A stretch of 64,000 nt of DNA from Nitrospirota bacterium (lineage in GTDB: Bacteria; Nitrospirota; Thermodesulfovibrionia; Thermodesulfovibrionales; SM23-35): positions 1 to 64,000 of the forward strand of contig JBFMCL010000018.1 of assembly GCA_040754395.1 (NCBI GenBank). The letters run 5' to 3'. The position numbers were made by a program, and so were the translations under genes. Below are positions 48,050-52,621 of this stretch, piece by piece. Position 1 is the stretch's first letter. Every line of letters begins with the position of its first letter. The notes under the pieces were generated by a model. That model saw nothing but the letters and a program-made list of their open reading frames with translations, was not told where the DNA came from and made no database searches.

Positions 48050-48125
<76 letters not shown>

Positions 48126-48482: not shown

Positions 48483-48716
48483 ATGAAAACAATAACCAAA
48501 AAATCGACAATTTATTTTGATCCTCAGATCCATAAAGCTCTTCGTCTTAAAGCCGCTGAAACTGATAGTTCTGTATCTGATATCGTTAATGAGGCGATCC
48601 GAATCGTCTTCGCGGAAGATGCAGAAGACATTGCTGCATTTAAAGAAAGGGCACATGAGCCCAACCTGTCGTTTGAGGAAGTTCTCAAGGACTTGAAGAG
48701 GCGTGGCAAAATATAA
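48483..48716 (+). CDS. Ribbon-helix-helix antitoxin
   Basis: 77 residues. The N-terminal strand KKSTIYFDPQIHKAL and helix SVSDIVNEAIRIVF form an RHH (CopG/MetJ-type) DNA-binding domain. The acidic C-terminal tail (AEDIAAFKERAHEPNLSF) would wrap the toxin. It overlaps the toxin gene by 14 bases, and its own promoter holds a 12-base palindrome, as in autoregulated RelBE/ParDE modules. Confidence 0.88.
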   Translation: MKTITKKSTIYFDPQIHKALRLKAAETDSSVSDIVNEAIRIVFAEDAEDIAAFKERAHEPNLSFEEVLKDLKRRGKI

Positions 48717-48960
48717 TATCCTTATCAAGCCGTCAGCCGTCAAAGAAATTGAGAACACTCCACGAACAGATCGCTCCCGGATAATTCAAAAGATTCAGAG
48801 CTTGGCAAACACACCCCGATCTCAGGGATGTGAAAAACTCACAGGAGAAAACAGGTACAGAATTCGTCAAGGAGTTTACAGAATAGTCTATTCAGTTTCT
48901 GACAGGGAATTACATATTATCGTTGTTAAAATTGGACATAGACGAGATGTATACAAATAA
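48703..48960 (+). CDS. RelE/ParE-family toxin
   Basis: 85 residues with the compact RelE fold: YNILIKPSAVKEIENTP, LTGENRYRIRQGVYRIVYSV and VVKIGHRRDVYK. The Arg-rich YRIRQGVYRIVY and the GHRRDVYK ending are typical of RelE mRNA interferases. It most likely cleaves mRNA on the ribosome when freed. ParE (gyrase poison) is less likely given the intact basic residues. Confidence 0.88.
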   Translation: MAKYNILIKPSAVKEIENTPRTDRSRIIQKIQSLANTPRSQGCEKLTGENRYRIRQGVYRIVYSVSDRELHIIVVKIGHRRDVYK

Positions 48961-49014
48961 GACACATTACGAATCGCTCAACCCGACCCGGAATGAGTTC
49001 ATTTTGTATTCCCG

Positions 49015-49073
49015 CAGCTGGTAGAGCACAACCTTACAAAGGTTGGGGTTGCGGGTTCGAACCCCGTTTCCCG
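49015..49073 (+). pseudogene. tRNA-Gly-like remnant lacking its 5' acceptor strand
   Basis: CAGCTGGTAGAGCACAACC..GGTTGGGGT and GCGGGTTCGA-CCCCGTTTCCCG repeat the tRNA-Gly at 48050 almost exactly, but the first 13 bases and the 3' CTCCA are gone. The anticodon loop is TTACAAA, so GCC has become ACA. The inverted repeat CCGGAATG/CATTCCGG (48988-48995, 49076-49083) brackets it. It is probably a decayed duplication. Confidence 0.75.
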
Positions 49074-49133
49074 GGCATTCCGGTTGCAGGACAAGAGACG
49101 GGCATCAGCGCAGTACCAGACGTTCATTACTCA

Positions 49134-49724
49134 TTACTCTTCCCTTTTGCACTGCAGTTTCATGAAGAGCAGCGGGATTGAGATAAGGATAAGAAGCACC
49201 CCCTGGGCCATTATCAGAAACTTGACCCCTGCGATGGTAATCAGGTAAAAGGAAGTCAGAAGCGTGCCGACGATGCTTCCGAGCGTTGACAGGGCATAGA
49301 GGGTGCCCACGGTTCTGCCGGAAGTGTGGAGGCTGCAGATGAGAAGTTTTACTGTATATGGACTGACTGCGCCAAGAAAGACAGAAGGGATAAAGAAAAG
49401 AAGCATGGAGGCCAATAGGGGGCTGAGCCTGAGTCCAAGGTCTTTCATGAAAACCCAGTCGGAAACAGGTGCGCCGTACAGCGGGAACGTCACGAGAAGG
49501 ACTGCGGGGGCAATGATGATCAGCCCGAGCTTTTTTGCCGATGGATTGACATCCGCGACTTTCCCGCCGAGATAGTAACCTGCCGAGAGCCCTCCCAGAA
49601 ACACGCTGATAAGGCTTCCCCACACAAAGACAGAATTGCCGAAATTCGGTGCAAGAACCCTGCTGCCCAGAATCTCGAACGACATTACCACCGCCCCGCA
49701 GATGAAGACAATTGCCCTGATCAT
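49134..49724 (-). CDS. Membrane domain of fused spermidine synthase family, as separate protein
   Basis: 196 residues with about six membrane helices. VMSFEILGSRVLAPNFGNSVFV..GSLISVFLGGLSAGYYLGG and GRTVGTLYALSTLGSIVGTLLTSF match the N-terminal membrane half of fused MFS/spermidine-synthase proteins. Here the synthase half is a separate gene just upstream (22 bases) with its own signal peptide. AAAGGAGAAAG precedes the ATG. It may anchor or feed the exported synthase domain. Confidence 0.8.
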   Translation of the reverse strand: MIRAIVFICGAVVMSFEILGSRVLAPNFGNSVFVWGSLISVFLGGLSAGYYLGGKVADVNPSAKKLGLIIIAPAVLLVTFPLYGAPVSDWVFMKDLGLRLSPLLASMLLFFIPSVFLGAVSPYTVKLLICSLHTSGRTVGTLYALSTLGSIVGTLLTSFYLITIAGVKFLIMAQGVLLILISIPLLFMKLQCKREE

Positions 49725-49746
49725 AGACTTTCTCCTTTCCGGCTGA

Positions 49747-50661
49747 TTACTTCACTTCCATGTGCTGGTAGATGTTTACCGGCGCAAAGTCGTCTGTCAG
49801 GAGTTCAGACTTTTTCGCGTATTCTGATGCATACGCATAGGAGGCACTGATCTCAGGGAGACTGAAGTCGAATTTCCGGTAGGACTGGATTTTTTTTGCG
49901 TTCGCTGCGACAGCTTCTTCGGTTTTTCCCGTTTTGTTTCTGGTCGCGACAAAAATGAAATTTTTCGATCTTTTCCCCTTGAATATATAGAGGTGGGGGA
50001 ATGCTTCGGTATAGGTTCTGATCATCGAGTAGAAGAACTTGTTCTTGGTCGGTGAGACAATATTGGATACGACCACTCCCCCGTCCTTCAGGCTCCTGCT
50101 GACCTCCCTGAGGAATTCCACGGTTGTGAGGTGGAAAGGGATAAAATCAGTCTGATAGGCATCGAGAAAAATGATGTCGTATTTCTTTTTTGCCCTTTTG
50201 ATGAACATCCTTCCGTCCGCGATATGCACCCGCATCGCATTTGTCTCCCGGAAGTGAAAGAATCTTTTTGCGACATCAGCGATATCTGGATCGATCTCGA
50301 CCACATCAGCAGTGACGGCAGGGTAAAACCTGTTGAAGTACCGCGGCATTGCGCCGGCGCCGAGACCGATGAAAAGGGCGTCTGCCGGCTCTTTATCGAG
50401 AAAGGCAAGACCGATAAACGCCATCTGTGTGTATTCAAAGAGCAGCTTGTCAGGGGTATCCACATGCATCCCTCCCTGCATATAACTCCTCTTGTTGTTG
50501 AAGATATACCGTTCTTTCTTCTCCAGGTCCTCTATCACCGCGATGTACTGGTAGAGGGACTCTTTCTCATAAAGTTTTTTTTGCGCACTGCTTTCGGCCT
50601 GGACAGCCGGGGGCAACGCAAGCAAAAGGAACATCATGAATATGTGTGTGCGTATTTTCAT
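49747..50661 (-). CDS. Exported spermidine-synthase-like protein
   Basis: 304 residues from ATG 50661 (AGGAAAAG upstream); the longer frame overlaps the previous gene. A clear Sec signal peptide (residues 1-23, KIRTHIFMMFLLLALPPAVQA) is followed by a spermidine-synthase fold. FIGLGAGAMPRYFNRFYP stands at the SAM/dcSAM loop, then VVEIDPDIADVAK and IIFLDAYQTDFIPFHLTT. The fold binds dcSAM or SAM, but those cofactors are cytoplasmic, so an exported catalytic domain is puzzling. It may bind polyamines or act on another substrate. It lies between a dehydrogenase and its membrane partner. Confidence 0.78.
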   Translation of the reverse strand: MKIRTHIFMMFLLLALPPAVQAESSAQKKLYEKESLYQYIAVIEDLEKKERYIFNNKRSYMQGGMHVDTPDKLLFEYTQMAFIGLAFLDKEPADALFIGLGAGAMPRYFNRFYPAVTADVVEIDPDIADVAKRFFHFRETNAMRVHIADGRMFIKRAKKKYDIIFLDAYQTDFIPFHLTTVEFLREVSRSLKDGGVVVSNIVSPTKNKFFYSMIRTYTEAFPHLYIFKGKRSKNFIFVATRNKTGKTEEAVAANAKKIQSYRKFDFSLPEISASYAYASEYAKKSELLTDDFAPVNIYQHMEVK

Positions 50662-50695
50662 ATTGCTTTTCCTATTATATCTATTATAAATCCTC

Positions 50696-52621
50696 TCACG
50701 ATGAAAAACCGAGCACCTGCTTGGCAGCACGTTTGCCTTCCCGTATTGCCCCGGCCCAGTGCTGGTGTCCGTTCAGCTCTGCATGGCAGAAGGCAAGGCG
50801 TCCGAATCCTCTTTTGAGCAGAAGACGCGGCGCTTCCCTGCCCTGCGTTCCGAAATAGAACCCGGGCTGGGGGTTGACATATGCATGTCCCCAGCGGTTC
50901 AGGATAATCCCTGCGATGTCTTTACGGGGGTCAAAACCTGATGCACTGAAAAGATGCGCCATCTGTTCACGTATCATCAGCTCATACTCGGCATAACTTG
51001 TGGAGAGCAGTTCCCTACGCCCCCTCACCCCCTGTTCCCTGATATGAAGACCGGGATAATAAAAAGGTACATAGAAGGTCAGAATCACCGGTTTGCCCGG
51101 ATCAAGGGGAGGCTGGTAATCTCCCATGGTCATGGGCTGACGCAGATTGCAGGAGAACCCGAACCCTTCAAACCACCTGCATGCAGTAACCCCGAGCTTT
51201 TCCAGAAAGCGCCAGTTTTTCAGGCCGATATTCACGACGAGGAAGGGTGAATGATAAAAGGACGAAAGGGCATGACGGTAATCCTCCGGAAGGTCCCGAA
51301 GAAACCGTTTCGCTACCCAGCTCCCTGCAGCCACAATAACGTGCTTTGCCTTCAGTCTGAACATTGTATTGTTTTTAACATATGCTACGGAAACGTATTC
51401 GGATTGTTCAGGATGTGAATCGTGCTGCACCCCCACGACGGTCGATTTCAGCCGGATCTGTACTGGAGTTCCTTTCTGCTCAAGGGCGCTAAACCGGAAG
51501 GGGTTATTCAGGATGTCTTCAAAGACATCCTCTCCCTGAATTGCCTCGGGGAGCATCCGTTTAATGAAATACCGGACGAATCCGTCGGTACCTCCGGGAA
51601 AGGAATGCCATTCGCGCTGATATCGCCGTTCCCTGCCGGTAAAAGAGGTGAACCCGGGCAGTGCTACCTGGTACGCACCATATGCGGATATTGCATCACA
51701 CCCGAGACCCATGCTGCTTGCGAGCACAGGGTCTGCAAATCCCGTAACGGCAGAATTCAGCTTCAGGACATTTTCGAGAAATTCCTTGTAGGTCATCGTA
51801 TCAAACCAGTTCTCATGTCTGTTCTCCCTGTCCCCCTTGCCCATATCATTTTTCCAGAACAACAGGTCACGTTTTGCCTCATCGGAGAACGGAGTTCCCT
51901 TCATCTTCTGATTCCAGATATCAGTAAGCCAGAAAGAACTTCCTTTCCGTGAATCCTGAAAAAAGTGCCCGGTGTGCGCTGCGAGGTCTTTCCAGAACAT
52001 GAACCCGAAATTGGTCTGGTCGAACTGCAATTGTGCGGATGCAGAGGCGGGGTTCTGATATCGAAAGGACCGGGGCATTCCCAGTTCCGAAAAGATATCG
52101 TCAATCACGGAGAAAGAATTTGCTCCCTGGGGGCTGATCATCCGGTAGCCGGCAACAGAGAATTCGTTTCTTTTGGATACCCCGCCAAACACAGGGTGGT
52201 TATCGAGGATGATGCAGCTCCGTTTTTTCCGGGTTGCATTCATAAACGAGAATGCTGCGGCTAGGCCGCTCATTCCCGCGCCGATAATCGCAAGATCAAA
52301 GAATTCGCCTGTGTCGCGCGCATCGGAAGAATGCCGGTGATATTTTCCGTCTCTCAGGTTATGGCCCGCATTGACTATTTCCTCGGTATTGCCATGTGAC
52401 TCCGCATAGTCGCCGATGCCACCGTATCCGTCCCATGAGCCGGATGCTGCGAACGAAAGAGGAATCCTGAAATCGAGCAGTACCGCACCCGTCCCGATCA
52501 GGAGACCGTTCAGGAAATCCCTGCGGGTTACTTGCTGATACAGGCCAAGGTGCCGTTTCTTCTTTTCAGAGACAGGTTTTTTGTTCTCTCTGTCCATGTT
52601 CTGTTCCGGTACATGCTGCAT
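50696..52621 (-). CDS. Tat-exported FAD oxidoreductase, spermidine dehydrogenase-like
   Basis: 641 residues from ATG 52621 (ATG 52597 also possible). Twin-arginine signal VTRRDFLNGLL (R33-R34) followed by a hydrophobic stretch. FAD-binding motif AIIGAGMSGLAAA (G114, G116, G119) and IILDNHPVFGGVSKRNEF match SpdH-type spermidine dehydrogenases. It would oxidise a polyamine in the periplasm, passing electrons to the membrane. It is followed after 34 bases by the exported synthase-like gene, so the two and the membrane protein form one operon. The exact substrate is inferred. Confidence 0.78.
   Translation of the reverse strand: MQHVPEQNMDRENKKPVSEKKKRHLGLYQQVTRRDFLNGLLIGTGAVLLDFRIPLSFAASGSWDGYGGIGDYAESHGNTEEIVNAGHNLRDGKYHRHSSDARDTGEFFDLAIIGAGMSGLAAAFSFMNATRKKRSCIILDNHPVFGGVSKRNEFSVAGYRMISPQGANSFSVIDDIFSELGMPRSFRYQNPASASAQLQFDQTNFGFMFWKDLAAHTGHFFQDSRKGSSFWLTDIWNQKMKGTPFSDEAKRDLLFWKNDMGKGDRENRHENWFDTMTYKEFLENVLKLNSAVTGFADPVLASSMGLGCDAISAYGAYQVALPGFTSFTGRERRYQREWHSFPGGTDGFVRYFIKRMLPEAIQGEDVFEDILNNPFRFSALEQKGTPVQIRLKSTVVGVQHDSHPEQSEYVSVAYVKNNTMFRLKAKHVIVAAGSWVAKRFLRDLPEDYRHALSSFYHSPFLVVNIGLKNWRFLEKLGVTACRWFEGFGFSCNLRQPMTMGDYQPPLDPGKPVILTFYVPFYYPGLHIREQGVRGRRELLSTSYAEYELMIREQMAHLFSASGFDPRKDIAGIILNRWGHAYVNPQPGFYFGTQGREAPRLLLKRGFGRLAFCHAELNGHQHWAGAIREGKRAAKQVLGFSS

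Follow-up and report, generated by a model that had tools for sequence, protein, structure and literature searches.

A split SpeE-like protein with a Sec signal, its membrane partner and a Tat-signaled dehydrogenase form a conserved unit in Nitrospirota

The C-terminal domain of METTL13 (METTL13-C) methylates the N terminus of eEF1A, and its residues Glu524 and Asp575 are required (PMC6109062). The fungal protein NHMT (AN4663) joins seven transmembrane (TM) segments to a domain that resembles spermidine synthase (SpdS, or SpeE), in which an isoleucine replaces the aspartate that recognizes decarboxylated SAM (dcSAM); this ER-resident enzyme transfers methyl groups to the N-terminal histidine of secreted LPMOs (PMC10349129). 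For SpeE2 from the ISS locus of Pseudomonas, a role as spermidine synthase has been considered unlikely (PMC7298707). As for the oxidation of polyamines, the spermidine dehydrogenase SpdH carries a Tat signal (PMC11107197), and SpdH from P. aeruginosa contains FAD and a surface heme b, whose ligands are His54 and His562 (PMC12564564).

NCBIfam family NF037959 (fused MFS/spermidine synthase) combines a membrane half and a SpeE-like half in one chain. Such proteins are common in Nitrospirota, and a literature search for NF037959-type names found no reports. Here we describe a locus in which the two halves are encoded by separate genes, next to a gene for a dehydrogenase.

Gene layout and conservation of the locus

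We analyzed a stretch of 64,000 nucleotides from a Nitrospirota genome (contig JBFMCL010000018.1), which we will call the window. As the original prediction had it, three consecutive genes lie on the minus strand. In order, these encode P0003 (50696..52621), a Tat-signaled FAD protein of 641 amino acids; P0001 (49747..50661), which has a SpeE fold and a Sec signal; and P0002 (49134..49724), a membrane protein with six hydrophobic segments. Because the intergenic gaps are just 34 and 22 bp, and because AAGGAG stands ahead of P0002, the three genes likely form one operon. P0001 most likely starts at the ATG at 50661 rather than at the upstream GTG at 50730, which is the start of the longest ORF. 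For these proteins we computed the conservation of the linkage, the split of the fused family, the active-site residues, the heme ligands, and the fold of P0001.

Just downstream of P0002 is a tRNA-like stretch (49008-49085 and 48050-48125 in the window) that was not called by ARAGORN and that is missing the normal 5' part. It is 93% identical over 59 bases to a nearby tRNA-Gly(gcc) and seems to be left over from a duplication. Two small overlapping ORFs of 77 and 85 amino acids (48483-48960, plus strand), situated between this remnant and the tRNA genes, resemble a ribbon-helix-helix antitoxin and a ParE/RelE-type toxin.

We searched 296 genomes of the phylum for homologs of the pair (E <= 1e-60 for P0002; E <= 2e-98 for P0001). 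P0001 (at least 53% identity) and P0002 (at least 73%) were found in the same 19 genomes. Homologs of P0003 (about 50% identity) were found in 15 genomes, all of them among those 19, and in 15 of 15 cases the gene adjoins P0001 and P0002. The association of the three genes is therefore not due to chance, even though P0003 may be co-directional with the pair, convergent or divergent. This search for the trio in other genomes, which had been proposed as a check, establishes that it is a real, conserved and uncharacterized unit, and a split variant of a family that is known but whose function is dark. Among named genomes, a scan yielded about 30 loci with the module, nearly all from Nitrospirota (including Nitrospira), along with one from a Desulfobulbaceae genome and one from a "Proteobacteria" MAG. 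Four genomes (L070-L073) encode P0001 and P0002 without P0003, which means that the unit has the pair as its core and P0003 as a frequent but dispensable partner. Two more distant pairs (L076 and L077) are likewise split and lack P0003.

A split of the fused family, with a synthase-like half predicted outside the cytoplasm

P0002 aligns to positions 2-182 of the NF037959 model (115 bits) and P0001 to positions 191-478 (124 bits), with both scores above the curated cut-off of 40 bits. P0002, which has only sub-threshold matches in Pfam, is thus the membrane half that is normally fused to the synthase-like part, as originally proposed. The one-chain layout with the membrane half first does not apply to P0001 and P0002, which are two genes in the reverse order. 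That description of the pair as split and reversed turned out to be general: P0001 is upstream of P0002 in every pair that we saw, and split relatives of NF037959 proteins are numerous. P0002 is the most conserved of the trio (72-81% identity), and the membrane half is more conserved than the soluble half.

At a looser threshold (E <= 1e-20), relatives of P0001 are found in 144 of the 296 genomes, and many of these are fused proteins. In a phylogenetic tree, the split clade is placed among the fused proteins, with modest deep supports (90/78 and 83/40), which suggests that the split form derives from a fused ancestor. Four relatives of P0001 (from L074, L075, L078, and L079) lack the signal peptide, the membrane partner, and the C-terminal motif T-D-D, and are nested in the exported clade; apparently, signal and partner were lost secondarily, as if these proteins were back in the cytoplasm. 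The genome of the window also encodes a protein of 710 amino acids (L003:526-2658) in which TM segments flank a SpeE-like domain on both sides; this is another membrane layout of the fold.

We judged the export of the trio's proteins by sequence rules. By rule, the N terminus of P0001, MKIRTHIFMMFLLLALPPAVQA followed by ES, is a Sec signal peptide (residues 1-22, at 50596..50661 on the minus strand, with a predicted cut between AQA and ES). In register, this signal peptide coincides with the seventh hydrophobic segment (TM7) of the fused relatives. For instance, TM7 of the fused protein from L080 ends in a signal-like ASA (SLTLVLILSAAGPSFASA, continuing with PETRVLYEKDSLYYH), and the counterpart in P0001 is LALPPAVQA followed by ESSAQKKLYEKESLYQY. 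Fused relatives have seven hydrophobic segments, and in 27 fused proteins the loops have a Lys/Arg content that agrees with an N-in, C-out topology, which puts the SpeE-like domain outside. The SpeE-like domains of split and fused proteins contain just 0.14 and 0.15 cysteines per 100 amino acids, respectively, versus 1.14 for relatives without the signal and the membrane part (canonical SpeE has 0.25, from two sequences only). Furthermore, essentially all split and fused members have a C-terminal T/S-D-D/N motif that is not found in the signal-less, membrane-less relatives or in SpeE. Because of the TM7 register, the loop charges, the low cysteine content, and the C-terminal motif, we predict that the SpeE-like domain is extracytoplasmic across the whole fused family and not just in P0001.

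The fold and active site of P0001

The predicted structure of P0001 (pLDDT 86.5) is a complete aminopropyltransferase fold, including the N-terminal beta domain, and matches 3anx with Z = 26.3 over 264 residues. The fold and the Sec signal both agree with the original prediction. Fold similarity is highest to aminopropyltransferases (Z of about 26); the match to METTL13-C has Z = 22, over a shorter stretch.

To see which active-site residues are retained, we compared 67 family members, including split, fused, and standalone proteins. The Asp/Glu of the GxG(D/E)G motif, which recognizes dcSAM (D104 in SpdS), is Ala102 in P0001; it is A, G, I, S or M in all 67 proteins and D or E in none. The second putrescine-binding Asp (D176 in SpdS) is Gln170 in P0001 and is also lost in 67 of 67. 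The suggested comparison with SpeE thus points to a chemistry other than spermidine synthesis, and it is improbable that P0001 is an aminopropyltransferase. The residues of P0001 that correspond to Glu524, Asp551, Asp575, and Asn647 of METTL13-C are E122, D149, D167, and N200. These are the ribose-binding Glu, the adenine-binding Asp, the catalytic Asp, and an Asn that is absent from SpeE, and they are kept in 65, 66, 66, and 67 of the 67 proteins. Asp577 of METTL13-C is not kept (by alignment, it is Tyr169 in P0001), and this Asp is known for METTL13 only.

When the family profile was compared to PDB, METTL13-C was the best match (1e-26), followed by 3gjy (1e-21); the best established SpdS scored 2e-17. 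As 3gjy, an uncharacterized "spermidine synthase," has the same Ala and Asn as P0001, this set of residues is not proof of methyl transfer. Our literature search found no characterized bacterial member with the residue set of P0001. Given the residue set, the best PDB profile match to METTL13-C, and the precedent of NHMT, we favor an extracytoplasmic amine methyltransferase.

The original prediction held that a SpeE fold outside the cytoplasm has no ready access to its usual cofactor and is likely to have a new chemistry. We agree that the chemistry is not spermidine synthesis, but the argument that cofactor chemistry was lost is weakened, because the nucleoside-binding residues are nearly invariant and because a fungal 7TM SpdS-like enzyme performs SAM chemistry on secreted proteins while in the ER.

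P0003 and the role of the unit

P0003 was described at the outset as an exported dehydrogenase, and indeed it has a Tat motif (TRRDFLNG, residues 32-39, of which TRRDFL does not vary among 18 homologs) and is homologous over its length to SpdH from P. aeruginosa (7d9i, E = 3e-52), its nearest relative in PDB. The equivalents of the heme ligands His54 and His562 are both present. From this homology and the two conserved histidines, P0003 is probably a flavo-heme amine dehydrogenase of the spermidine dehydrogenase superfamily. (The AlphaFold model of P0003 is poor, with a pLDDT of 57, and was left out of the analysis.) Outside the module, all P0003 homologs whose sequence spans the site keep the pair of histidines. 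In one sub-lineage of module P0003 proteins, both ligands were lost together (to Glu, Gln, Lys and others, with Tyr), and in L094 and L141 they are partly or fully lost. One genome has the two types of P0003 in tandem (L028:6358-10323), so that a protein with both histidines and a protein lacking them are encoded side by side. In the tree, the P0003 clade is apart from the clade of the characterized SpdH (branch length 1.68, support 100), so spermidine is not established as its substrate. There is no SpeE-like partner beside the two distant SpdH loci from the phylum that we checked, and we found no recurrent CxxCH neighbor of P0003 that could be a c-type cytochrome partner. P0003 homologs without the pair (in Gammaproteobacteria, Gemmatimonadota, Acidobacteriota, and sphingomonads) have neighbors without a common theme.

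Our preferred reading, to which we assign a probability of about 0.4, is that the trio is an extracytoplasmic amine-modifying unit, with P0001 and P0002 as a SAM-dependent pair of the amine methyltransferase type and P0003 as a flavo-heme amine dehydrogenase. P0001 would leave the cytoplasm through Sec and be anchored to the membrane by P0002, so that together they would amount to a two-chain 7TM-SpdSyn protein. P0001 would most likely be a SAM-dependent methyltransferase of the METTL13-C/NHMT type, acting on an N-terminal or side-chain amine. P0003 would be exported in folded form via Tat and would oxidize an amine, with electrons passing from FAD to the surface heme b and on to the respiratory chain. 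The two enzymes probably share one amine, or else each might use the other's product as its substrate. Export, membrane tethering, methyl transfer, and a shared substrate are the parts of this scheme that we infer. We know of no SAM in the periplasm and would not expect it there, which counts against the methyltransferase; that P0002 carries SAM across the membrane would be a guess. Also counting against the preferred reading are Tyr169 in place of Asp577, the aminopropyltransferase-like fold, the residues of 3gjy, the pairs without P0003, and the sub-lineage of P0003 without heme ligands.

If the trio were instead an extracytoplasmic polyamine unit, P0001 would bind or aminopropylate polyamines outside the cell membrane and P0003 would oxidize spermidine-like polyamines. 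The full aminopropyltransferase fold of P0001 is consistent with this, as is the fact that the nearest PDB entry to P0003 is a spermidine dehydrogenase that is itself Tat-signaled (PMC11107197). However, the dcSAM-recognizing Asp and the second putrescine Asp are missing from all family members, and a long branch separates P0003 from the SpdH clade. Moreover, cytoplasmic polyamine synthesis can do without P0001, since the genome encodes ordinary enzymes for it: SpeD (on contig 34) and two SpeE-type proteins (on contig 8). We consider a polyamine role rather unlikely, and the label "polyamine module" from the original prediction is not supported, given the METTL13-C/NHMT-like active site and the position of P0003 in the tree. 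It is less likely again that P0001 and P0002 are a non-catalytic sensor, carrier or scaffold with a SpeE fold and that P0003 is the sole enzyme. Such a role would remove the puzzle of how a cofactor is supplied outside the cytoplasm and would suit the greater conservation of the membrane half, but split, fused, and standalone members hardly vary in the nucleoside pocket or in the catalytic Asp and Asn, features that would be superfluous for a mere scaffold.

A further possibility is a bacterial extracytoplasmic writer/eraser pair, a counterpart of fungal NHMT: P0001 and P0002 would receive SAM from across the membrane and methylate an exported protein or metabolite on an amine or a histidine, and P0003, as a flavoenzyme of the polyamine-oxidase superfamily, would oxidatively remove or use the methylamine. 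We view this as quite improbable. In 16 loci, the gene directly upstream of the P0001 homolog encodes an exported histidine-rich protein of 126-148 amino acids with the C terminus SGLSPP or SGVSPP (for example, at L024:7942-8322, L029:7963-8370, and L070:1501-1890) and with no Pfam match at threshold. It may be a substrate or bind metal as a partner of the pair, which we regard as a lead only. The pair might modify it during metal or oxyanion stress, perhaps on a histidine as NHMT does, with P0003 as a loosely associated oxidase; genes for CDF exporters, ChrB, a MerR regulator, and a metal ATPase are near some loci. But these metal genes are found at few loci only, and the histidine-rich gene is missing from the window and from about half of the loci, and we think that this is the least likely of the explanations.

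For the family of P0001 and P0002, our analysis offers a concrete reassignment that can be tested: a methyltransferase-like enzyme instead of a synthase. The natural split shows that the SpeE-like half can exist as a protein of its own that begins with a cleavable-type signal peptide, so both its predicted location outside the cytoplasm and its chemistry can be tested directly. If it is true that SAM chemistry occurs there, then bacteria must have a route for SAM across their inner membrane. And P0003, as a partner dehydrogenase, provides a handle on the substrate of the pair.

Compared to known systems, P0001 and P0002 are most like the fused NF037959 proteins in their topology, the T/S-D-D/N motif, and the set of active-site residues, but they are two genes with the synthase-like half first and with TM7 turned into a signal peptide. 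SpeE2 from Pseudomonas also combines TM segments with a SpeE-like domain whose catalytic residues are altered, but it is a fused protein of 847 amino acids with different substitutions (Thr, Glu, and Pro; PMC7298707). P0003 shares the Tat signal, the FAD fold, and both heme-b histidines with SpdH from P. aeruginosa (7d9f-7d9j), but is only about 30% identical to it and lies in a separate clade. The C-terminal domain of human METTL13 (5wcj) is the best profile match to P0001 in PDB and has the same four key residues, but it is not exported, has no membrane half, and has Asp577 where P0001 has Tyr169. Finally, NHMT, like P0001 and P0002, has TM segments and a SpdS-like domain with a SAM-binding Glu and no Asp/Glu in GxG(D/E)G, and according to its published description it acts beyond a secretory membrane; in contrast to the bacterial pair, it is a single fungal chain, and its 7TM part has been reported in fungi only (PMC10349129).
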